From: Bacillota bacterium
Lineage (GTDB): Bacteria; Bacillota; Bacilli; Alicyclobacillales; SLC66
Assembly: GCA_021821085.1 (NCBI GenBank)
Contig: JAKACV010000001.1
Span: forward strand, 26,630 to 90,629
Reading direction: 5' to 3'
Length of the DNA: 64,000 bases
Numbering within the stretch: the first letter of the stretch is position 1; each line of letters begins with the position of its first letter. The notes under the pieces are model-generated. The model worked only from the letters and a program-made list of their open reading frames with translations. It did no database searches and was not told the DNA's origin. This document shows positions 43,341-56,852 of the stretch, one piece after another. The position numbers and the translations under genes were made by a program.

Positions 43341-44777
43341 TTACAAAAACTTGCGAGACATCTTTTTCCCGTCATAGGTAAATAAAACGGATCTACCTTC
43401 CATCACGGTCTCTAAATGTACCGATCTCCCCCATAGTCGATGCACATACGGCAACGTCTTTTCTGTATATTTCACATCGAGCTCCATTCCCTCATACGCA
43501 TGTTTCAAGTACAATTCTCCTGACAATTGATAATCGCCATTCCGAACCAAAAGAACAGGGTACCCCCCATTCACTCGCGAGGCACAAAGTTTATCTCTTA
43601 CCTTTTCCCAATCCTTTTCAACCACTCGCCATTCATTTCCAATCTTTTGATACAAATAAAGGTCTAATTCCTCCACCAATTCCCTGGTCAAGTAGTTGCG
43701 GATAAAAGATGCATCATTCTCTGTTTCACGTACTTCAAACATCTTTTCGCGACCTCGCCCCGGTTCAGTTCCAAACCGCTCCCTGTCTTCCACGCTGGGA
43801 TGATCATAACGTCGTTCAATGTCTTCCCAAAGTTTCAGACCAAGCAAGTATGGATTGACACTTGTTCGCGACGGCAATACGACTCCAGAGTGCGTATGTG
43901 CAAAATCTAACCCTTCCGCATCTGTTAACTCCATCTCGCGCATGATGCGCAAGTGCCAATAGGTCGCCCAACCTTCGTTCATGATCTTGGTTTCCACTTG
44001 TGGCCAGAAGTAAAGCATTTCCTCTCGAATCACGGTCAATACATCTCGTTGCCAATCTTCAAGTACCTTACTGTGGTGAATCAAGAATAAAACGAGATCC
44101 TTGTTCAATTCCATTTCCGTACGTTTCGAAGATTGACTGGAGTTCTCCTTAAGGCGATCCTCATGTGGATGAAGGCGTTCATCCAAGGCAAATAAATCTT
44201 CATACGGATTTGCAGATTCCCTTTTTACCGTAGCATCCGCCTTTTGATCCCGAAGACGCTGACGGCGAAGCGTGGTACGCGATGCATCCACGTGTTCTTG
44301 AATCGCTAATGCCGCATCAAGAACATGCTCAACTGCTTCTTTCCCGTATTCTAACTCGTATTGACGAAACCGTTCTGCACTTGCAGCCATTGAATCCACC
44401 ACATTGCGAGCTGTTTGAGAAAACATTGCATTGTTTTTAAAAAAATCACAATGTGCAAGCACGTGTGCACTCACTAGCTTATTTTGCACGAGTGAATTAC
44501 TGTCGAGCAAAAAGGCATAACATGGATCAGAATTGATGACGAGTTCATAGATCCTGCTGAGACCAAGATCATAATCTAACTTCATGCGATGATACGCTTT
44601 TCCAAAGCTCCAATGTGAAAAGCGAGTTGGCATGCCCTGATAAGCACCAAACGTATACAAAATATCTGCCGGTACAATTTCAAAACGCATATCGTAGAAA
44701 TCGAGTCCAAAGTCTTTTGCCAAGGCAGTCATTTGCTCAATCACTTTTTCCAATTCGCTGACTTCATCAGGAGTCAT
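43341..44777 (-). CDS. spoVR: SpoVR-family stage V sporulation protein
   Basis: FYDMRFEIVPADILYTFGAYQGMPTRFSHWSFGKAYHRMK, NEGWATYWHLRIMRE, NPYLLGLKLWEDIERR. Confidence 0.95.
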   Translation of the reverse strand: MTPDEVSELEKVIEQMTALAKDFGLDFYDMRFEIVPADILYTFGAYQGMPTRFSHWSFGKAYHRMKLDYDLGLSRIYELVINSDPCYAFLLDSNSLVQNKLVSAHVLAHCDFFKNNAMFSQTARNVVDSMAASAERFRQYELEYGKEAVEHVLDAALAIQEHVDASRTTLRRQRLRDQKADATVKRESANPYEDLFALDERLHPHEDRLKENSSQSSKRTEMELNKDLVLFLIHHSKVLEDWQRDVLTVIREEMLYFWPQVETKIMNEGWATYWHLRIMREMELTDAEGLDFAHTHSGVVLPSRTSVNPYLLGLKLWEDIERRYDHPSVEDRERFGTEPGRGREKMFEVRETENDASFIRNYLTRELVEELDLYLYQKIGNEWRVVEKDWEKVRDKLCASRVNGGYPVLLVRNGDYQLSGELYLKHAYEGMELDVKYTEKTLPYVHRLWGRSVHLETVMEGRSVLFTYDGKKMSRKFL

Positions 44778-44932
44778 GCACTCTCGCCCCCTTCACGCCC
44801 TGGTTCGGGACTGAAAAAGGTTCGCAAAGCCTTATACACTTCACCCTTTTCGTGAATCAATGCATTGCGAAAGCGAGGCGTATGAAAATGTCGATAGGCG
44901 GTCATTAATGTGGAACTGCGATTGTATTGATT
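44774..44932 (-). pseudogene. yhbH: 3' fragment of yhbH (DUF444), separated from its 5' part by the intervening element
   Basis: Minus-strand frame, not in the ORF track: NQYNRSSTLMTAYRHFHTPRFRNALIHEKGEVYKALRTFFSPEPGREGGESA*. TGA overlaps the spoVR ATG (ATGA). It continues the 53784-54806 fragment exactly in frame. Confidence 0.93.
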
Positions 44933-44955
44933 CAATCCCACACCTTATCCCCATA

Positions 44956-47088
44956 TCAAATGGTGGACGATGAGAAATCCACTTGTATCCGCGTTCCGAT
45001 CGGAACTGAATGACCCGCAGGTATACTCTGCGTCGTTGCAAATCCAAACCCTGAAGGATTGAGTCGCAATCCAAGCGACGAACACACATGCATTGCTTCG
45101 GTCATCAACATGCCTTTGAAATTCGGAACGGTGACACTTGACACGTTATGTCTCTGTATTTCTATGGCCACAGTTGATCCTTCAGGCACCCGCGTGCCTA
45201 CATGCGGCCATTGATCAATAACTGTACCCTGCCCGCCAATAACGGTATCCTGTAGTCCAGCATCATGCAAATGCTGTGATGATTGATTTGATGGAATACC
45301 AGTCACATTTGGCACAGAAACATACTGCGTGGCATGAGTCGCTGCTTGTGTCTGTGTATGAGTTTTCTGTGTTGTCGTTTGGTGTGGAGGAATCTCCAAG
45401 TATTTCAATGTCCGCTCTAATACATAGCGAGCGGCGGGCGTTGCTACCCAATCGCCCCACTGCGCAGTATGTAAAGGTTCATTAACCGTTACATAAATTT
45501 CGACTTTCGGATGATGCGCTGGAACGAATCCAATAAAGGATAAGTTATATACATTGGCGTAATAGCCTCCACCTGGTTTGGGAATCTGAGCTGTGCCGGT
45601 TTTTCCGGCGATATTGTACCCAGGAATAACCCCAACATTCCCTTGTGGATCCTCATTTACAACCTTCACCATCGCATTCGTAACTTCCGTCATGATAGAG
45701 CGAGGAGCAACATTCCGCACCACGTGTACGTGATGCTGAAAAACATCCTTGCCACTGGGAGCTACCACTTTTTGCACAACGTAGGGGGTTATCAAGTCTC
45801 CGCCGTTGGCAATGGCCCCGATTGCGGCCACCTGTTGGATAGGGGTAACAGCAAGCCCTTGCCCGAAGGCCATCGTCGCAAAATCAACAGCATTTAAATT
45901 TTTCTCAGGGAATATGATCGAATGACCTTCCCCTGGTAAATCGATCCCTGTTCGATGATTAAATCCAAATAAGCGCCAGTAGTTATAGAAATTCTTCACT
46001 CCCTCGGCCTGCCCAATGTGAATTAACCCCACATTACTGGAGTAGATCAGCGCTTGCTCATATGTGAGCCGCCCCCATCCATAAATGTTCCAATCGTGAA
46101 TTGGAACCCCATTCACATAGTCCACGCCAGACATATAGGTTTGATTCATGGTTATGCTGTGCGTAGTCAATGCCCCCACAAAAACTTCTGGTTTAAAGGT
46201 CGAACCAGGTTCAAACGGATCGCTGATCGCCCAGTTTGTATATAATGTCGAAGCAGAGTACTTCCAGTATTCATTTGGATTAAATGTGGGGAGTGTCGCC
46301 ATCGCTAGAATGGCCCCTGTTTTTGGATTCGCCACAATAATGGCAGCACGCTTAGGAGTAAACCGCTGTTGAATGGTCGACAACGCTTTTTGCGCATATC
46401 TTTGAATGACCGGATTGATGGTCAGGTACACATTATCGCCATTTTGAACTGGCTTTTCATGTTCCGGATAAAACGGGATGGGGTTCCCGAATGTGTCTTG
46501 CGTAAATTGACGATATCCTGGTGTACCTGCAAGATACTTATTATAGGACAATTCTACTCCTGTAGACCCTTGTCCATGCTCATTTGTAAAACCTATCACA
46601 TGAGAGGCGAGAGTCTGATTCGGATATTCACGTAAATACGCTTTGTAGATCGTAAGATCATTGCTAAGATTTAAGTGAGTGAAGAGCGCCTCGACTTTTT
46701 GCTTAGTAAAGAGAGATACGTGAATGAGATATGGATACAATTGTAACCACGTAACCCCCGGTCGATTAAGCGCAGAGAGCATCGTTGCCTGCCTCACATG
46801 GACAATACTTGCAAGTCCACCTGCCACTGCACTGAGCTTGTCCGCTTGACGAATCGCCTGCAAATTCAGATCTATCGTATAGGCAGGTACGCTGTATGCT
46901 AGAATACCTCCAGTCGAATCATAGATCGTCCCTCGAACGGGTTGAATTACATCGCTCGCATCCCATTGCAATTTTGCACGATGATACAAAAATGCGTCAG
47001 CCGTCTGCACATAACCGATACGCACAAGAACGGCCGCAACCGCTACTACAAACCCAATTTGTAAACTTCGTATTCGAAATCTTTGCAC
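44956..47088 (-). CDS. class B penicillin-binding protein with PASTA domains (SpoVD/FtsI-like)
   Basis: N-terminal TM, PVRGTIYDSTGG, transpeptidase motifs GSTFKP, SSN, KTGTAQIP, and two C-terminal PASTA repeats (VPNVTGIPSNQSSQHL..., VPNFKGMLMTEAMHV...). Confidence 0.92.
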   Translation of the reverse strand: MQRFRIRSLQIGFVVAVAAVLVRIGYVQTADAFLYHRAKLQWDASDVIQPVRGTIYDSTGGILAYSVPAYTIDLNLQAIRQADKLSAVAGGLASIVHVRQATMLSALNRPGVTWLQLYPYLIHVSLFTKQKVEALFTHLNLSNDLTIYKAYLREYPNQTLASHVIGFTNEHGQGSTGVELSYNKYLAGTPGYRQFTQDTFGNPIPFYPEHEKPVQNGDNVYLTINPVIQRYAQKALSTIQQRFTPKRAAIIVANPKTGAILAMATLPTFNPNEYWKYSASTLYTNWAISDPFEPGSTFKPEVFVGALTTHSITMNQTYMSGVDYVNGVPIHDWNIYGWGRLTYEQALIYSSNVGLIHIGQAEGVKNFYNYWRLFGFNHRTGIDLPGEGHSIIFPEKNLNAVDFATMAFGQGLAVTPIQQVAAIGAIANGGDLITPYVVQKVVAPSGKDVFQHHVHVVRNVAPRSIMTEVTNAMVKVVNEDPQGNVGVIPGYNIAGKTGTAQIPKPGGGYYANVYNLSFIGFVPAHHPKVEIYVTVNEPLHTAQWGDWVATPAARYVLERTLKYLEIPPHQTTTQKTHTQTQAATHATQYVSVPNVTGIPSNQSSQHLHDAGLQDTVIGGQGTVIDQWPHVGTRVPEGSTVAIEIQRHNVSSVTVPNFKGMLMTEAMHVCSSLGLRLNPSGFGFATTQSIPAGHSVPIGTRIQVDFSSSTI

Positions 47089-47260
47089 GGCTCATCTTCC
47101 CTGCCTTTAAACTGATATTCGCGCACATAAACGCGTCAGCATATCTCAACTATAGACAAGTAGTGTTTGCTATGTTCATAAATGACTCTATCATAAATGA
47201 ACGTTTATAAAAATCTATAGTAGTATAATCGACCCGTATATAGAATTTGGGGGTCTCTTT

Positions 47261-48598
47261 TTATGCATCGCGCGTATCGATATGAAAATACTCAAGTGCT
47301 TCCGCAACGAGCGACTGCGTTCCGATAATAGCAAGTAGCCCTTTTTCATCCAGCCCTTCTAACGCCAGCGAAATAGCTTCTTCCAGATCAATTGCAGCGT
47401 GTACCGTGACAAATTGAGCAGCGAACGTTTGCGCATCTGCGCTAAAAGTCAAATGTTTATTTTTAATCTTTGGCAACCATAATCCCTGACTAAGCGGTGC
47501 AAGTACACTAAGAAATCCGCGATAATCTTTGTCACTTGGCACAGCGCTAATCAGGTGAAGACGTGAATATGTCATCATGCCAAGCACTTCACGCACATAC
47601 TCCGCGCTCTCCCGATTGATCGCTCCATCAATCAATACCTTTGGTGAACCCGGAATCACTTGGCATCTTCCCGGAATCGAAACATCCAGCAGCGCCTGTC
47701 TCACTTTCGCGAGATCAAGTGTCCCCCCGACAACCCACTCGGCTGTAGCCATGGCAACAGCCGCGTTATCCACTTGATGCCTGCCCAACATGCGCAATTC
47801 TAATGCTCGATAGTGCTGCTGAGCAGTTATCACAGACAACCGCGTCCCTTGCGCACTTGTTTCGACATCTTGCACCCAAAAGTCGGTATTCAACTCGCGC
47901 AAGACCTTTCCTTCTTTGCGCCCTTCGTCCCTCAAAATTGAAAGCGCCGGCTCCACCTGATAGCCAACCACGACCCCCATCAGTTCAGGGGTCATGATGC
48001 CCGCCTTATTGTTCGCAATCTCTGAGATATGCGCGCCCAGTTGCTCCGGATGTTCGTATAAAACTGGCGTAATGACCGCCAATTCCGCATGAAGTGCATT
48101 GACATCATCATAGCGCGCCCCTCGACCAAGCTCAATCACATTGATGTTCGTGCGCATTTCTGCAAAATATAACATCGCCACCACTGCGGTAATGCCGACT
48201 GGACCAAAATATTCATGCGGAGCCATCACACGTTGAATCTGCTCTAACGGTCCCCGAATACGCTCTAGCAACCGCATGAAATCAGCTTCCGAAATCGCTT
48301 TGCGATTCACCCGAATACGCTCTGTAAAATCAAGCAAATGAGGACTGGTGAATAGCCCCACTCGATACCCCTGTTGTTCGAGTATTTGTGCAATCATCCG
48401 TGAAGTGGATCCCTTGCCTTTACTACCAGTTATCTTGATATTACGCTGTAGGCGATCAGGAGATCCAATATTATCCAACAAATGTCTGATGTGCAAAGGA
48501 TTGCGCGTGTCACGGTCTAAGCCGTCAACACGATAGGGCTTAGACTGCGTATAACTTGAAAACACATATGATACAGCATCATAAAACCGCGTAAACAC
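47261..48598 (-). CDS. FolC-like / Mur-ligase superfamily enzyme
   Basis: ITGSKGKGSTSRMIAQILEQQGYRVGLFTSPHLLDFTERIRVN, ELGRGARYDDVNA, NNKAGIM, PGRCQVIPGSPKVLIDGAIN. Confidence 0.85.
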   Translation of the reverse strand: MFTRFYDAVSYVFSSYTQSKPYRVDGLDRDTRNPLHIRHLLDNIGSPDRLQRNIKITGSKGKGSTSRMIAQILEQQGYRVGLFTSPHLLDFTERIRVNRKAISEADFMRLLERIRGPLEQIQRVMAPHEYFGPVGITAVVAMLYFAEMRTNINVIELGRGARYDDVNALHAELAVITPVLYEHPEQLGAHISEIANNKAGIMTPELMGVVVGYQVEPALSILRDEGRKEGKVLRELNTDFWVQDVETSAQGTRLSVITAQQHYRALELRMLGRHQVDNAAVAMATAEWVVGGTLDLAKVRQALLDVSIPGRCQVIPGSPKVLIDGAINRESAEYVREVLGMMTYSRLHLISAVPSDKDYRGFLSVLAPLSQGLWLPKIKNKHLTFSADAQTFAAQFVTVHAAIDLEEAISLALEGLDEKGLLAIIGTQSLVAEALEYFHIDTRDA

Positions 48599-48615
48599 TT
48601 GGCTCCGCTCCTTAT

Positions 48616-50520
48616 TTATGGGTGCGTGGATTTAGATTTTGCCTTTGCCGCATTTTGCGCTTGCTGTGCAAAGTAGGCGTCAATCACTGTCTTTGCCATT
48701 GGCGTAGCCGCCCGAAAACCTTCTCCTGTGACATTTGGAATGACGGCTGCAACTGCAATCTGCGGATTTTTATAAGGGGCGAACCCGATAAACACTGAGT
48801 TGTTACGCCCTGGAATCCCGCTTTCTGCCGTCCCTGTTTTCGCCGCCACATTGATCGGATCATTGCCAAAGAAATAGGTGGCAGTCCCCAATGTGCCATG
48901 CGTCGCAAGTTCCATCCCTTGCTTAATCAGATTGATATAAGTCGGGTTCACATTCACCTTATCAATTAAATGGGGTTGAAATACTTTGACGACGTGTCCT
49001 GATGGAGATATAATCTCATGTACCATTTGCGGTTGATAGCGATATCCGCCATTTGCGATGGTTGCAACATACGTCGCCATCCCTATGGTTGAGTACGTCT
49101 CTTCTTGTCCAATCGCAGCGGCAGGAAGATCATATAATGTCGGTGGGTTTGCAATCGTCACATAGCCAGTCGCTTCACCTGGCAAATCAATTCCAGTTGG
49201 GCTGGTCAACCCAAATTGCTTACCCATGGATGAGATCTGCTTCAGTGCCGTGACACGCGGTCCAGTTAACCAAGACTCAATGTTTTGCGGTGGATTATTG
49301 ACATTAAAATGCCCCATGTCGAGTCCCACCTGATAAAAATACGTATCATCTGATACCTCTAAGGCTTCACGTAAACCAATAACGCCAAATCCAGCTTGAT
49401 TCCAGTTTTTCATATAATAAGTCCCAATTTGCAGTCCACCGGTGTCATTCACCTTCAGCGAAGGGGTTATTTCATGATTCATCAAAGCTGCAAAGGCAGT
49501 CAGTGGCTTCTCCGTAGAACCAGGCATATAGAGGCCAGCGATCGCGGTATTCAGTCCTGCATCATTTTGCAGAAAGCTCTGATAGTGTTGAGAGGAGATC
49601 CCGCCCACCCACCACTGCGGTTTATATGTCGGATAACTCGCCATCGCAAGAACAGCGCCCGTATGAACATTTAGCACAACAATCGTCCCAGAATACACGT
49701 TAGATTCGCCTAACGCATGCAAATAGTTAATCCGATAAATCAGCGCTTGCTCCGCTATCTTTTGAAGCGGTCCATCCAAATTCAACACGAGGTTATTCCC
49801 TGCATGCGCAGGTACATGGATCGTCCCCCCGGTCAAAGGCACCCCCGCTGGGTTGACCGGGATTTTCTCCGCTCCGGATTTCCCTCGCAGTACACTTTGA
49901 TACTGCTCCTCTAGACCTGACAAACCAACCAAGGAATTTGGATTGTACCCTTGGCTTGCGTACTGGGATGCTTGATTTTGGGGAATCGACCCAATATAGC
50001 CAATCTCATGTGCAGCCTCATAGCCTTTTGGATAAACCCGTACAGGAGTGGTAATCATAGTGATACCTGGCAAAGAGTTGCGATGTTCTGCCACATAAGC
50101 TAATTCGACTGGTGTAGCATTTTGAACTAATGTCACAGTTGCAAATCCGGGTTTTGACGTCGTCATATCATATAGCAACTTCTTAGCCGGAATCTTCAAC
50201 ACAATCGACAATTTTTTAGCAATTAACGAAGCAGAGGCGAGATCATTTGGATACCTGACAAAAACGATATTAAAATCTGCCTTGTCCGCGGCCAACACTT
50301 GACCTTGACTATCATAAATCCAACCCCGTGGTCCTGGGATTGGAATCGTATCGTAGTTTTGCACCGAAACTTGCGATTGAAATTGCTGATTTTCTGTAAT
50401 TTGGATATAGCCTAACCGCACCAAAAGTGTGGCACTAGCCAACACGGTGACGAGAAACATGCCCTGGATACGCCTTGGTACGCGACGTTTCACCGGACGC
50501 TCTTCGCGCCGAACACTCAC
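48616..50520 (-). CDS. penicillin-binding protein 2-type transpeptidase
   Basis: GPRGWIYDSQGQVLA, PGSTEKPLTAF (SxxK region), SDDTYFY (SxN region), AKTGTAESG (KTG). Confidence 0.92.
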   Translation of the reverse strand: MSVRREERPVKRRVPRRIQGMFLVTVLASATLLVRLGYIQITENQQFQSQVSVQNYDTIPIPGPRGWIYDSQGQVLAADKADFNIVFVRYPNDLASASLIAKKLSIVLKIPAKKLLYDMTTSKPGFATVTLVQNATPVELAYVAEHRNSLPGITMITTPVRVYPKGYEAAHEIGYIGSIPQNQASQYASQGYNPNSLVGLSGLEEQYQSVLRGKSGAEKIPVNPAGVPLTGGTIHVPAHAGNNLVLNLDGPLQKIAEQALIYRINYLHALGESNVYSGTIVVLNVHTGAVLAMASYPTYKPQWWVGGISSQHYQSFLQNDAGLNTAIAGLYMPGSTEKPLTAFAALMNHEITPSLKVNDTGGLQIGTYYMKNWNQAGFGVIGLREALEVSDDTYFYQVGLDMGHFNVNNPPQNIESWLTGPRVTALKQISSMGKQFGLTSPTGIDLPGEATGYVTIANPPTLYDLPAAAIGQEETYSTIGMATYVATIANGGYRYQPQMVHEIISPSGHVVKVFQPHLIDKVNVNPTYINLIKQGMELATHGTLGTATYFFGNDPINVAAKTGTAESGIPGRNNSVFIGFAPYKNPQIAVAAVIPNVTGEGFRAATPMAKTVIDAYFAQQAQNAAKAKSKSTHP

Positions 50521-50670
50521 ACTCTTAGCCCCCTTGGTCTACCTACTTGGTTGATCCATTCATTGTACCGTAACTCTATGAGACTGTCATGGAACTACCC
50601 TATAGTTTCCCAATGAAACTTGTAACAAGAATGTGTCGATGCTCACGAAAGCGACAATCCGCATGTAATC

Positions 50671-51852
50671 CTATATATGACGTACATTCCTAAATACATT
50701 CACACTGGCGATCACCAGAATGAAAAGGGTCCCCGCGACAAAAACGACAGGCATTGCAATCACCAACGGGCCAAGCAATGGCGGCAACACCGCAACCCCT
50801 ACGTTCGAGGCCATACTAAATCCTGCCGTTTGCACACCTGCTCCACGCGTCTCGCGCGCCGCTTCCGCCGTTGTACTAAGCGCAAGCGCGTAACACCCGT
50901 TCCCAAATATTCCTAGAAACAAGAAAATCAACTGTAATACACCCGCAGTAACGGTCCAAACCCCTGTGAATTGCAAAACCACGAAGAGACTGAGTATCGT
51001 GGTCAACACAATCAGAATCTCCTGCCAAATTCCTGACCGACCAAGAAAGTCTGCCAACACAGGAAAGAGAATCGCCCCAATTCCCGAGCCAAGAAACGTA
51101 AGCGCAGTGAGTGTGGCGCCGAGTTGCGCCGCATTTGCCACATGCAAATGGAGAAGCGCACTCACTGCAACACCGCCAAACATGACACTCGTTGCAGCAA
51201 TAGACAACCCCACCCACCACCATCGCGGCGAACCAAAGACAATTCTCTCCACACCTGAAACAGGTTCGTCAAACCGCTGCACCTGATTCAGTGACAAAAA
51301 CAAAAGGACTCCAACCACTGCATTCACGATCCATACCGCCACGAGCGTACCCGTATAGCCAAATCCGTGCAAAAGCGTAGGTCCCATATAGGCCCCCGCC
51401 GCCATCCCGAAAAACAGCATGCCAAGCGTAAAACCCGTCAACGTCTTCACATGTGTCAGGTGAACCTGACGGACAACCGCTCCTACAGGTGAAATCAGGA
51501 GAGGATAGGCAATCGCCGCAATCGCTTGCGCCACCATGAACCAACTGTAGGAAGGCGCAAAAATGCGCCCAAGAAGCCCGACAAAGGAGAGGACGATCGC
51601 CGTTCGCAACACAGGCGCAATTCCATCTTTCCTGGCCCACCATGCGGCTGGCATACTAAAGAGAATCATTGCAAATCCATAGAGTGATAAAAACATCAGA
51701 ATCGAACTCAGCGATGCATGCAGATTACCAATCAACTCCGGCACCATCGGTGCCATAACGAACCACGCGGCCCCGACTGTAAATGCAAATACCACATAGG
51801 CAATAACAAAGAACAGCGGTGCAGAACGTTCTCTTTGCGATGTTCGTACCAT
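50671..51852 (-). CDS. MFS transporter
   Basis: About 12 TM segments. MFS-like loop AAWWARKDGIAPVLR. Confidence 0.85.
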   Translation of the reverse strand: MVRTSQRERSAPLFFVIAYVVFAFTVGAAWFVMAPMVPELIGNLHASLSSILMFLSLYGFAMILFSMPAAWWARKDGIAPVLRTAIVLSFVGLLGRIFAPSYSWFMVAQAIAAIAYPLLISPVGAVVRQVHLTHVKTLTGFTLGMLFFGMAAGAYMGPTLLHGFGYTGTLVAVWIVNAVVGVLLFLSLNQVQRFDEPVSGVERIVFGSPRWWWVGLSIAATSVMFGGVAVSALLHLHVANAAQLGATLTALTFLGSGIGAILFPVLADFLGRSGIWQEILIVLTTILSLFVVLQFTGVWTVTAGVLQLIFLFLGIFGNGCYALALSTTAEAARETRGAGVQTAGFSMASNVGVAVLPPLLGPLVIAMPVVFVAGTLFILVIASVNVFRNVRHI

Positions 51853-51914
51853 TTCTCTAAACCTCCTCGCATTTGTCTATTTTATGACGATACCATGAAA
51901 GCAGATAAATGAAA

Positions 51915-52115
51915 CTAGTTCGACTGCCCCTGATCAAGATTTATTTGACTTGCTATGCGAATTGCAAGATCAAGCAGTCGATCTACCCATTGAGCCCCAT
52001 TTTTATCCTGTAATAAAACCCACTCTCTTTGCGCATCGAAAGAAAGATGAGCTACTTCCAAAGAATCAATTTCAATGAGACTATTGCCCATTTGGTATCT
52101 AAGTCGCTCTTTCAT
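51915..52115 (-). CDS. small hypothetical protein divergent from the recombinase
   Basis: 66 aa, strong Shine-Dalgarno AGGTGGGGGTG upstream. MKERLRYQMGNSLIEIDSLEVAHLSFDAQREWVLLQDKNG... Confidence 0.6.
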   Translation of the reverse strand: MKERLRYQMGNSLIEIDSLEVAHLSFDAQREWVLLQDKNGAQWVDRLLDLAIRIASQINLDQGQSN

Positions 52116-52196
52116 TTTTTCACCCCCACCTCTCTATACTATGAAAATATGCGCTACTTCTGTCTGTTGAAATAATCGCAGTGCGCGCCGCGTAAA

Positions 52197-53762
52197 GTGT
52201 CAAGAGGAGGAATACAGATGGCCATCTATCCGACAGGTCTGCATACTGTCGCCCTATATTTACGAAAATCTCGTGCGGATCTTGAGTCCGAGAAACGTGG
52301 AGAAGGGGAGACTCTCTCAAAACACAAACGCGCCCTCTATGCCCTCGCAGCAAAATACGACTATGTCATTAGCGATATTTATGAGGAAATTGTTTCAGGC
52401 GAACGGATCATCGATCGACCCGCGATGCAACGTCTCTTACAGACGGTCGAACTAGCACGCTATCAAGCCGTTTTATGCATGGACGTAGATCGACTAGGTC
52501 GAGGCAATATGATCGATCAAGGCATCATTCAAGATATCTTCAAACAATCGCGAACGCTCATCATTACGCCACGCAAAGTCTATGATTTACAAGATGATAT
52601 GGATGAAGAATGGAGCGAATTTGAAGCGTTTATGGCACGCCGCGAGTTAAAGATGATCACGCGCAGAATGCAGCGTGGTCGCCGTCAAAGCGCTCTTGAA
52701 GGCAAGAGTATCAGCCGCAAACCACCTTATGGCTATCTTCGCGATCATACGCTCCATCTTCACCCCAACCCTACCACCGCTCCGATTGTCAAGATGATCT
52801 TTGCACTCGCAGCACAAGGCCACGGTGCAAAACGCATCAGCACTCATCTTACAAAACTCGGAATCAAATCCCCAAGTGGAAAGGATTATTGGGATCGCTC
52901 CACGATCGATTCCATCTTAAAAAATCCAGTCTATCAGGGACATATTCGTTGGGGACATTACCGCTACCAAAAAACGACAAATGGCAAAACAGGGTATACT
53001 CGATCGCTCGCAGAAGAGCAGACAACGGTGATGAAATATCATGCGCATGAACCACTCGTTGATCACGCGCATGTTGCAAAATATCTCGCTCATGTGAGCC
53101 ATCATCCAAGCGTCCCATCCAATAAAACCTTGGCAAATCCCTTGGCCGGACTCATCACATGTGTAAGATGCGGCCGGGCCATGCTGCGCAAAAAGACGTA
53201 CAATCGGCCACATCATCGTTTAGTCTGCACGACTCCTAGCTGTCTGACAAAAGGAACACATTTTGAATATGTCGAGCGATCTATCACCCAAACCTTACAA
53301 TCCGTGTTGGCTGGCATCCATTTGCAGCCCGAAAGGCTACAAAAAGCCCTCGCGGTCAGTCAACCTAAGCCAGACTGGGTCGAACACCAGATTGCACAAT
53401 TACAAGCATCAATCTCACAAAACGAAAAGCAATTGGCTCATTTACACGACATACTCGAGCAGGGGATATACAACATTGCGACATTTGACGCGCGGCGAAA
53501 TTTGCTTTTACAACGGCTGCAAGATCTTGATCATGAAGTACAAAAGGCACGACACGAGGCAACTCACAAAGCGCATACTTTGCCTATCCCACACGTTGTG
53601 CACACCACTGCACTCAGTCCATGGGACTTATATCAAAACGCATCCACCAACGAACTGAAAAATGAACTGTTAAAGCTTTTCATCCTTCGCATCACGTATC
53701 GTAGAGAAAAAGAATGGACACAACCCGATCACTTTGAATTACACATTTCTCTGCGCTTTTGA
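52197..53762 (+). CDS. large serine recombinase (SpoIVCA/SprA-type site-specific recombinase)
   Basis: Catalytic N-terminus VALYLRKSRAD, DVDRLGRGN, recombinase domain (PPYGYL...ISTHLTKLGIKSPSG...WDRSTIDSILKNPVYQG), zinc ribbon (CVRCGRAML...CTTPSC), C-terminal coiled coil. Likely start MAIYPTG at 52218. Confidence 0.96.
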   Translation: MSRGGIQMAIYPTGLHTVALYLRKSRADLESEKRGEGETLSKHKRALYALAAKYDYVISDIYEEIVSGERIIDRPAMQRLLQTVELARYQAVLCMDVDRLGRGNMIDQGIIQDIFKQSRTLIITPRKVYDLQDDMDEEWSEFEAFMARRELKMITRRMQRGRRQSALEGKSISRKPPYGYLRDHTLHLHPNPTTAPIVKMIFALAAQGHGAKRISTHLTKLGIKSPSGKDYWDRSTIDSILKNPVYQGHIRWGHYRYQKTTNGKTGYTRSLAEEQTTVMKYHAHEPLVDHAHVAKYLAHVSHHPSVPSNKTLANPLAGLITCVRCGRAMLRKKTYNRPHHRLVCTTPSCLTKGTHFEYVERSITQTLQSVLAGIHLQPERLQKALAVSQPKPDWVEHQIAQLQASISQNEKQLAHLHDILEQGIYNIATFDARRNLLLQRLQDLDHEVQKARHEATHKAHTLPIPHVVHTTALSPWDLYQNASTNELKNELLKLFILRITYRREKEWTQPDHFELHISLRF

Positions 53763-53783
53763 CGCCCGTTGTGGGCAACCTGC

Positions 53784-54806
53784 TTAGCTGTATTGATTAA
53801 TCTCACCATACCCAAAGACGTTACACACATCCATGAGCTCTGTGACCAATTTGACACAACGCTCATTGTCAGAGGATAAATTGTCTCCATCCGAGAAATG
53901 AAAAGGATAGATATTGTACAATTGCGGCGAGTAGCGAGCATCGATCAGATTTAGCGCAAGCTGATAGGCTGACGAGCAGATCGTTCCGCCGCTTTCACCT
54001 TTTGTAAAAAACTCGTGTTCAGTGACGAGTTTCGCTTCTGTATGGTGTGCAATGAATTCAATGCCCACATGTTCATACTTAGTACGCAAAAAGCGCACCA
54101 TCCAGAAGTAAAATGTCCGAGCGATATACTTCTCAAATGTGCCCATGGATCCAGATGTGTCCATCATCGCGATCACGACCGCTTGCGACCGCGGCACCTG
54201 CACATCATCCCATGTTTTATAGCGCAAATCCTCCGGAGTAATCGGATGCAAACTGGGATGCCCCAATCGCGCATTACGTTTTAGCGTTTCAAGGATCGTT
54301 CGCTTTTTATCGATATTGCTCTGTAGCCCCTTCTTCCTTATGTCGCGAAATTCAACATCTTCGACAACCAGTTGATCTTGAGATTTTTGTACAAGATAAG
54401 GAAGTTCTAGTTCCGCAAACAACACTTCTTGAATCTCATCGACAGAAACCTCCGCCTCATAATAATCGACGCCCGGTTGATCTCCCGCACCCTCACCTTG
54501 CCCTGGACCTTTGGGGTTCCCTGGCTGTGGGTCACGTGCAATCACATCGCCTACCGCCGCATCACCGTCACCTTGACCTGCTTGTTGACTTTTATTGTAA
54601 TTAAAGCGAAACCGATATTCATCGAGCGAACGAATGGGGACTTTCACAATCTGCCTGCCATCTGTCATAATGATGCTCTCTTCACTCACGAGATCAGGTA
54701 GATTATTGCGGATGGCCTCTTTCACCTTTTGTTTATGCCGCGCTTGATCCTGCTGTCCCTTGCGGTGAAGGGACCAGTCGTCTTGACTTAGTGTAAATAC
54801 TCCCAT
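53784..54806 (-). CDS. yhbH: 5' portion of yhbH (DUF444, vWA-like), truncated two codons inside the intervening element
   Basis: [32 protein letters not shown]..., vWA-like [18 protein letters not shown], ending [14 protein letters not shown] 54806 after AAGAGGTGA. Confidence 0.95.
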
Positions 54807-54953
54807 GTCTCTCACCTCTTCGGATAGTTGCGTAAGGCAATTGGTAGAGATACGAGCAGGGCGTGAGTCATTCGACACACACCCTGCATTGCCATCCACC
54901 TAACACTTCATAATCCATAGCCAATTTCCGATCAGCTATCGGATTCATTACAC

Positions 54954-56852
54954 TTAGCGATTGAGCAAACTGCCCGTATACTGTAACAATTCATTGGAGC
55001 ATGAAGCACAATAGCCATGCTCCTCCATCAAACGACGACTGACTTCATTTATTTTCTTTAATTGGTTAGAATCTGGTGTTTTTGTCGATGTTGTAATTTT
55101 TACAACATCTTTTAGATCATCAAATAATTTCTTCTCAATCGCTTCGCGCAGCCGTTCATGTGAATGATAATCAAATCGTTTCCCGCGTCTCGCATAGGTC
55201 GAAATGCGAATTAAGATCTCCTCGCGAAATGCACGTTTTGCATTTTCTGAAATGCCAATTTGCTCCTCAATCGAACGCATTAACTTTTCATCTGGATCCA
55301 TCTCTTCGCCTGTGATCGGATCTCTCATTCGTTGCCAATTACAGTACGCTTCGACATTATCCAGATAATTTTCAAGCAACGTTTTAGCCGACTCTTCATA
55401 CGAATACACGAATGCCTTCTGAACTTCTTTTTTAGCCATATCATCGTACTCTTTACGTGCAATAGCTATAAAATTCAGTAATTTCCCACGATCCTCCTTA
55501 CTTATCGAAGCGTGCTGATCGAGTCCTTCTTTAATTGCACGCAACACATCCAGCGCATTGATACAACTCGTATCCCGTCTAATCAAAGCGCTCGAAATGC
55601 GATTAATCACATAGCGCGGATCGATACCTGACATCCCTTCATCAGGTGCTTCTATTCGCAACTCCTCAATGTCTTTATCTTTGAACCCTTCCACACTACG
55701 TCCATCGTACAAATACAACTTCTTCAACAAATCCATACCCTGCTTTTTGGATTCCTTTAGTCTTGTGAGTACTGAGAAAATGGAAGCGGTCATCAATGCA
55801 TGCGGGGCGATGTGGACATCTCGCAAGTCACTCTGTTGCACCAATTTGCCATAAATTTTCACTTCGTCAGTAACACGTAGATTGTACGGAATTGGCATCA
55901 CAATCATCCGCGATTGAAGTGCCTCATTGCGCTTATTTCCAACGAATGTCCGATATTCCGTCTCGTTCGTATGCGCAATCACCATCTCATCAGCTGAAAT
56001 CAGCGCAAAACGTCCGGCCTTAAAGTTGCCCTCTTGTGTCAATGAAAGCAAATGCCATAAAAATTTTTCGTCACATTTCAACATTTCTTGAAATTCCATC
56101 AGACCTCTATTCGCTTTATTTAACTCTCCATCAAAACGATATGCACGCGGATCACTCTCTGATCCATATTCCGAAATTGTGGAAAAATCAATGCTCCCTG
56201 TCAGATCTGCGATGTCCTGGGATTTTGGATCAGACGGGCTGAATGTGCCTATGCCAACGCGCTCATCCTCTGACAATAAAATGCGTTCAATCGGCACCTG
56301 TTCAATGTGTCCCCCGAATTCTGATTCCAGTCTCATGCGGCAACTTGGGCACAAATTCCCTTCAATCCGAACGCCAAATTCATTTTCGAAATCAGAACGT
56401 AATTCGGCAGGAATGAGATGCAGTGGTTCTTCGTGCATAGGACACCCTTTAATGCCGTACAGCGCCCCTTCCAGTGTACGTGAATAACGCTCTAACCCGC
56501 GCTTTAGCATCGTAACAATCGTCGATTTCCCACCACTGACAGGTCCCATAAGAAGCAGAATACGTTTGCGCACATCGAGGCGTTTTGCCGCCGAATGAAA
56601 GTATTCTTCGACCAGACGCTCTAAAGAAAGATCGAGACCGAATATTTCATCGGAGAAAAATAGATATCTCTTATGTCCATGATCATCAACATTTACACCG
56701 GTAGATTCGATCATTCGATAGATACGTGAATGGGCAGATTCAGCAATGATTGGCTGTTTACGCACCAACTCCATGTAATCCAAAAATTTCCCTTCCCAAG
56801 TTAACTCTTTTTCCCTTGCACGATATGCGGCCAATCGGTTCAGAATATCCAC
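54954..56852 (-). CDS. prkA: PrkA family serine protein kinase/AAA protein
   Basis: GPVSGGKSTIVTMLKRGLERYSRTLEGALYGIKGCPMHEEPLHLIP, ISADEMVIAHTNETEYRTF, C-terminal PrkA domain. Confidence 0.96.
   Translation of the reverse strand: MDILNRLAAYRAREKELTWEGKFLDYMELVRKQPIIAESAHSRIYRMIESTGVNVDDHGHKRYLFFSDEIFGLDLSLERLVEEYFHSAAKRLDVRKRILLLMGPVSGGKSTIVTMLKRGLERYSRTLEGALYGIKGCPMHEEPLHLIPAELRSDFENEFGVRIEGNLCPSCRMRLESEFGGHIEQVPIERILLSEDERVGIGTFSPSDPKSQDIADLTGSIDFSTISEYGSESDPRAYRFDGELNKANRGLMEFQEMLKCDEKFLWHLLSLTQEGNFKAGRFALISADEMVIAHTNETEYRTFVGNKRNEALQSRMIVMPIPYNLRVTDEVKIYGKLVQQSDLRDVHIAPHALMTASIFSVLTRLKESKKQGMDLLKKLYLYDGRSVEGFKDKDIEELRIEAPDEGMSGIDPRYVINRISSALIRRDTSCINALDVLRAIKEGLDQHASISKEDRGKLLNFIAIARKEYDDMAKKEVQKAFVYSYEESAKTLLENYLDNVEAYCNWQRMRDPITGEEMDPDEKLMRSIEEQIGISENAKRAFREEILIRISTYARRGKRFDYHSHERLREAIEKKLFDDLKDVVKITTSTKTPDSNQLKKINEVSRRLMEEHGYCASCSNELLQYTGSLLNR

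Follow-up and report, generated by a model that had tools for sequence, protein, structure and literature searches.

A probable sporulation gene-intervening element with host-type cargo splits yhbH, in an operon interrupted at several sites among the Alicyclobacillales

Accounts of sporulation-intervening elements usually treat them as phage leftovers, with a single element per gene. Members of this class (PMC5595907, PMC4191935, PMC5025042, PMC6957869) include skin in sigK, SP-beta in spsM, vfbin in spoVFB, yin in yabG, and vrin in spoVR of Geobacillus thermoglucosidasius, the last of which makes spoVR an already known target. Here we describe an element that splits yhbH in a 64,000-nucleotide stretch of DNA (hereafter the window) from an acid-loving, spore-forming member of the Alicyclobacillales; it corresponds to contig C92 of a genome of 2.85 Mb (G000), to which Sulfoacidibacillus thermotolerans Y002 (G001) is the closest relative with a name. 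The yhbH element and the five named above are alike in having a serine recombinase beside the split gene and in their expected excision in the mother cell. They differ in that the known elements carry phage or phage-like genes whereas the yhbH element carries host genes, in the target itself, and in that the neighboring genes of the same operon are split independently in relatives.

A preliminary description of this DNA set the element apart from typical phage-derived ones, but a precedent without phage genes is available in gin, which lies in gerE of Bacillus cereus (PMC5595907). Like the yhbH element, gin is non-phage, has a serine recombinase and a short core (9 bp in gin), and its removal restores a mother-cell gene in frame; it differs in its size of 28.6 kb, its three recombinases where the yhbH element holds one, its target gerE, and its lack of reported relocated host genes. 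The true oddity of the yhbH element is that conserved host genes appear to have been relocated into it, not that phage genes are absent. The heterocyst DNA elements of cyanobacteria (PMC4874684) are similar in their development-specific excision, in being recombinase-borne, and in that several can occupy one gene or operon (four in nifD of Rivularia), but they belong to another phylum and cell type, and the yhbH recombinase falls below the cut-off of the XisF heterocyst model NF041201 (93.9 bits against 375). Interruption of spoVR (vrin), a non-phage element (gin), and multiple elements in one gene (Rivularia nifD) are thus already on record. In a search of the literature outside subscription papers, we found no earlier account of an interrupted yhbH or prkA, of an intervening element into which host genes had moved, or of a sporulation operon with five elements. 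The element described here is not a phage and contains conserved chromosomal genes, and in relatives the operon is split at up to five places, each site with its own recombinase lineage. Two questions thereby become testable: what keeps such elements in the germ line, and how the cell coordinates several excisions that occur at the same time for one operon.

On the minus strand of the window, prkA is followed by a truncated yhbH and then, 8.9 kb on, by spoVR (Table 1). The yhbH gene is split at codon ~342, within a stretch of conserved codons, the match of its 5′ piece to PF04285 stops at profile position 375–377 of 418, and the tail that is absent from this piece sits immediately ahead of spoVR. 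The 10-mer TGTATTGATT (minus strand AATCAATACA) is present in exactly two copies in the window, both at the junctions, and joining these two core copies gives a full-length YhbH in frame. The empty site in the unsplit relatives G012 and G007 encodes nearly the same residues as the joined YhbH, with a gap-free alignment. Around the core, we found no inverted repeats above about half matched. Because the same split and the same cargo recur in two independently assembled Sulfoacidibacillus genomes, the split is not an assembly artifact.

The 49-codon 3′ piece of yhbH has a nonsynonymous divergence (pN) of 0.05–0.06 and a synonymous divergence (pS) of 0.67–0.89 between the window genome and two congeners, and it retains 90–94% amino acid identity with synonymous sites near saturation. 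A pN far below pS is also seen in prkA, in the 5′ piece of yhbH, and in all cargo proteins except the one encoded by a 66-amino acid (aa) open reading frame (ORF), although with synonymous sites this close to saturation the exact pN/pS ratios are not meaningful. A 3′ scrap without a role would not stay in frame over such divergence. Purifying selection acts on both pieces of yhbH, strongly on the 3′ one, and the gene is therefore probably rejoined and used.

From these observations, we conclude with good confidence that this is a sporulation gene-intervening element of the serine-recombinase type that would be excised in the mother cell and whose cargo is accumulated host DNA. The split gene, the core, the intact recombinase, and the selected 3′ piece are established at the level of sequence. 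Mother-cell excision, the need for a directionality factor, and the reconnection of spoVR would be expected by analogy with the known class and with the control of yhbH in Bacillus subtilis, where the mother-cell regulator SpoIIID binds the yhbH region (PMC517825). In the sporulating mother cell, the recombinase and a directionality factor, perhaps the product of the 66-aa ORF, would excise the 8.9-kb element as a circle, restoring yhbH and reconnecting spoVR to the prkA-yhbH operon, while the element would stay in the forespore. The host DNA may have gathered in a stable chromosomal slot once an ancestral integrating phage had lost its phage genes. If FolC-2 or PBP2 (described below) is needed for growth, loss of the element from the germ line would be selected against, while its excision in the doomed mother cell would cost nothing; this lock-in by relocated genes is offered as a hypothesis.

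Table 1. The yhbH-intervening element and its surroundings, in window coordinates (PBP, penicillin-binding protein; MFS, major facilitator superfamily).
Feature	Position	Strand	Description
yhbH-intervening element	44933..53798		8866 bp, one core copy included; basis, in-frame join across core
Large serine recombinase, 521 aa	52197..53762	+	Resolvase, Recombinase, and Zn-ribbon; invariant YLRKSR serine motif
66-aa ORF	51915..52115	-	Divergent from recombinase; candidate directionality factor
MFS transporter	50671..51852	-	PF07690 (MFS_1)
PBP2-type transpeptidase	48616..50520	-	Transpeptidase and PBP_dimer
FolC-2	47261..48598	-	FolC-family ligase; Mur_ligase_M/C; TIGR01499 above cut-off
PASTA-domain PBP	44956..47088	-	Extra copy; Transpeptidase, PBP_dimer, and 2 PASTA
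Core repeat copy 1	53789..53798		Exact 10-mer at junction with yhbH 5′ piece
Core repeat copy 2	44923..44932		Exact 10-mer at junction with yhbH 3′ piece
yhbH 5′ piece (DUF444)	53784..54899	-	Ends GEINQYS-stop, ~49 codons short
yhbH 3′ piece	44774..44932	-	49 codons after NQY; stop overlaps spoVR ATG
prkA	54954..56852	-	Upstream gene of the operon, intact here; Pfam AAA_PrkA and PrkA
spoVR	43341..44777	-	Intact here; PF04293

We then compared the operon across 61 genomes, the window's own and 60 relatives, many of which are drafts. The prkA-yhbH-spoVR operon is interrupted at at least one of six sites in 36 of them, with 67 interruptions in total, a few of which extend over contig ends and are less secure. 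The window's site at aa ~342 of yhbH is split in 18 genomes, and 17 have a split at a second yhbH site, aa ~220, which falls within the DTSGSMG motif. Interruptions of spoVR lie at aa ~60 (12 genomes) and aa ~270 (8), and those of prkA at aa ~290 (10) and aa ~505 (2). Five elements occupy the operon in Ferroacidibacillus organovorans SLC66 (G006) and in a metagenome-assembled genome (G011), and four in G003, G013, and Alicyclobacillus tolerans BL-1 (G056). Transketolase (677 aa), taken as a control, was unsplit in all 57 genomes that yielded it, with one copy truncated at the end of a contig. Nearly all loci for which sequence was fetched have large serine recombinases adjoining the junctions, and the tree of these enzymes sorts by site: all 18 recombinases of yhbH-342, including the window's, form one clade (99/97), those of yhbH-220 fall together on one side of a branch with weak support (84/49), and those of spoVR-60 and spoVR-270 fall in separate clades. 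In-frame joins with cores of 8–17 bp, such as AACGAAGGCTGG in spoVR, were recovered at many junctions; at several yhbH-220 junctions, the candidate cores were short (5–7 bp) or misplaced and at some none was found, so that there we relied on the split itself and the recombinase.

FolC-2 and the PBP2-type transpeptidase of the element are conserved across the family as single-copy genes. The native block of FolC-2 runs metK, a 143-aa gene, a GGDEF gene (a provisional label), FolC-2, an HTH gene, phoU, a helicase, and a response regulator; it is whole in G004, G006, and G013 and present as fragments in G007, G005, and G010. In G000, G001, G002, and G003, the block is complete minus only FolC-2, which lies in the yhbH element instead, and in G008 and G011, where the blocks are at contig edges, FolC-2 is absent beside the HTH gene and both genomes have element copies. 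Because the genomes with FolC-2 in the element are exactly those whose metK-phoU locus lacks it, its move from that locus into the element is close to demonstrated by gene order. A close PBP2 orthologue (64–90% identity) is present once in 17 of the 18 family genomes and was not detected in G010; it lies inside the element in 10 genomes (in one of these at the end of a contig, next to the MFS gene of the element) and at scattered loci in 7, from which we infer that it too was relocated. The smallest form of the element, 5.0 kb in one genus (g2; G003, G015, and G017), consists of FolC-2, PBP2, and the recombinase only.

Several points weigh against this interpretation. We found no demonstrable sigma-E or sigma-K promoter. 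The candidate for a mother-cell promoter upstream of the 66-aa ORF was rejected, as it amounted to a TCATAnnnTA match resembling a -10 box in three Sulfoacidibacillus, without a conserved -35 box, and upstream of prkA nothing convincing was seen in an alignment that had one row in the wrong orientation. The 66-aa ORF is poorly conserved, with 28–30% identity to its counterparts in two Sulfoacidibacillus, as in a fast-evolving gene; it has no family match in profile or PHROG searches, and the elements of genus g2 have no room for an equivalent. Finally, the placement of PBP2 needs three changes on its tree, so a single capture is not proven; we rejected a one-capture history of FolC-2 and PBP2 on this ground, the FolC-2 tree giving no resolution and the host marker tree built from the PBP2 of the mre locus having deep support too poor to order the genera.

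One alternative is that the element is a recently arrived mobile island, a prophage remnant or satellite with ordinary horizontal cargo, and that the relocation reflects coincidence or differential loss of ancient duplicates. Its recombinase is indeed of the phage-integrase type, and related enzymes are encoded by IMG/VR prophages that have integrated next to yhbH, some of them bordered by a match to the yhbH 3′ end; moreover, the MFS transporter, which is also found in elements of genus g7, and the PASTA-PBP look like optional additions to the element. We nevertheless consider this unlikely, since the element matches the host in base composition, the carriers are exactly the genomes in which an otherwise conserved native block has lost FolC-2, the FolC-2–PBP2 pair is kept in three genera, the recombinase branching roughly tracks the host genera, and no second FolC-2 or PBP2 orthologue was found outside the element in carriers among the 61 genomes, many of them drafts. 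In Geobacillus, Anoxybacillus, and others, recombinase relatives also adjoin a yhbH that looks intact, and a phage that integrated in yhbH is the likely ancestor of the element; in the Alicyclobacillales, the phage genes are gone and yhbH is truly split. Among the IMG/VR prophage contigs (L247–L326, for example L248, L249, L259, L265, and L273), some have related recombinases beside an apparently full yhbH, and others have only a match to the 3′ end (aa ~338–379), as if the phage supplied a replacement 3′ end that keeps the gene whole.

Alternatively, the insertion might be fixed and no longer excise, with yhbH a pseudogene or its two pieces acting as separate polypeptides. A possible GTG or TTG start just upstream of the 3′ piece and a second, unsplit prkA-yhbH-spoVR set in some relatives would fit such a state. 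It is, however, quite improbable given that the 3′ piece holds its frame and sequence despite the near-saturating synonymous divergence, that precise in-frame cores are found at many sites, that the junction recombinases form one clade per site, and that in relatives the yhbH-220 split cuts the DTSGSMG motif, such that the pieces are unlikely to work in trans. The second sets occur in G020, G035, G038, G040, G041, G043, G046, G048, G054, G055, and G056, with a yhbH ~42–54% identical to the window's, and they may serve as a backup in genomes whose first set is interrupted.

The cargo was first read as cell-wall and possibly sporulation machinery. The ORFs and domains of that reading hold up, with a PASTA-PBP, a FolC-like protein, a PBP2, and an MFS transporter all on the minus strand. 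The 66-aa ORF is on this strand too, and the recombinase lies at one junction. Also upheld is the absence of phage structural genes that it reported: no element protein matched a phage structural or packaging family in PHROGs, and only the recombinase matched a PHROG integrase. The cell-wall label fits the two PBPs but not the rest, as the FolC-like protein belongs to the FolC family (267.5 bits against a subfamily cut-off of 162.65 for TIGR01499) rather than being an evident Mur ligase, and the MFS transporter has no wall link. The sporulation label finds no backing in the models. An assignment of the PASTA-PBP as SpoVD was rejected, since it reaches 465.7 bits against the 688-bit equivalog cut-off of TIGR02214, while the PBP of the dcw locus, likely the SpoVD of this genome judging by that model, reaches 682. 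The element PBP2 (439.7 bits) is below the 455-bit PBP2/MrdA equivalog cut-off of TIGR03423, as is the PBP2 of the mre locus (410.2). Judged by these profiles, the cargo carries no mark of sporulation machinery and its PBPs are not recognizable as sporulation proteins. A check for paralogues, which the preliminary description had proposed, revealed nine transpeptidase-domain proteins in the genome, among them two in dcw, one next to mreBCD, and on C30 a third PASTA paralogue, as well as a separate FolC-1 outside the element. Housekeeping paralogues thus remain for both PBPs and for FolC-2, and the cargo is not the sole copy of these functions. sigK is intact in this genome.

Elements at the yhbH-342 site in relatives carry other genes, namely a gerA-type germinant-receptor operon (G037), an ABC (ATP-binding cassette) transporter (G004), or an amino-acid permease (G013), and those at neighboring sites carry cytochrome bd, ars, sulfite reductase/sulfur assimilation, and aconitase genes. 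Wall genes are thus not a fixed part of the device, and the varied cargo suggests that the slots are platforms for host-type genes generally. The idea of a programmed partition between mother cell and forespore, in which excision lowers PBP and FolC dosage and couples wall remodeling to YhbH, is very improbable, for even with two PBPs aboard and a forespore function (the germinant receptor) in a same-site element, excision would leave all the cargo ORFs whole on a circle that would not replicate but would be present, so that loss of these genes from the mother cell does not follow, paralogous PBPs and FolC-1 remain on the chromosome, and cargo at the same and neighboring sites is as varied as described.

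A broader proposal, which we advance with more doubt than confidence, is that the prkA-yhbH-spoVR operon of the Alicyclobacillales consists of genes in pieces, with up to five independently targeted, recombinase-borne elements, each of which would have to be cut out in the mother cell to assemble the operon, and which would be held in the germ line partly by the relocated FolC-2 and PBP2. If so, only a terminal cell line can afford to lose this DNA. For annotation, caution is warranted, as assemblies with prkA, yhbH, and spoVR in this order will often show them as apparent pseudogenes.

Only ~24 bp separate the stop codon of the PASTA-PBP from the core (window 44932–44956) and all the cargo is co-oriented with spoVR, so before excision transcripts of the cargo may extend across the 3′ piece of yhbH and reach spoVR. 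Three further large serine recombinases are encoded in the window genome (C61:9671-10033, C27:60266-60550, and C27:7739-8062), beside which we recognized no split genes; the yhbH-342 clade has the one at C27:60266 as its closest outgroup. An element aconitase was considered as a sole core copy, and this was rejected because G036 has a second aconitase. In G037, the yhbH-342 element (L053:5047-9257) holds a complete gerA-type operon (GerA, GerAC, and a spore permease), and these spore genes would be expected to leave the mother cell only. In both congeners (G001 and G002), a second element interrupts spoVR, which is intact in the window, at aa ~270: that of G001 (L042/L094) carries a cytochrome bd oxidase, a pyridine-nucleotide-disulphide oxidoreductase, and a rhodanese protein, and that of G002 (L043/L095) a similar oxidoreductase and an ars operon. 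Two interruptions far exceed the other elements in size, one of ~131 kb at yhbH-342 (G040:C1:852878-984405) and one of ~135 kb at spoVR-60 (G021:C1:533316-668428), and both lie in complete or near-complete genomes.

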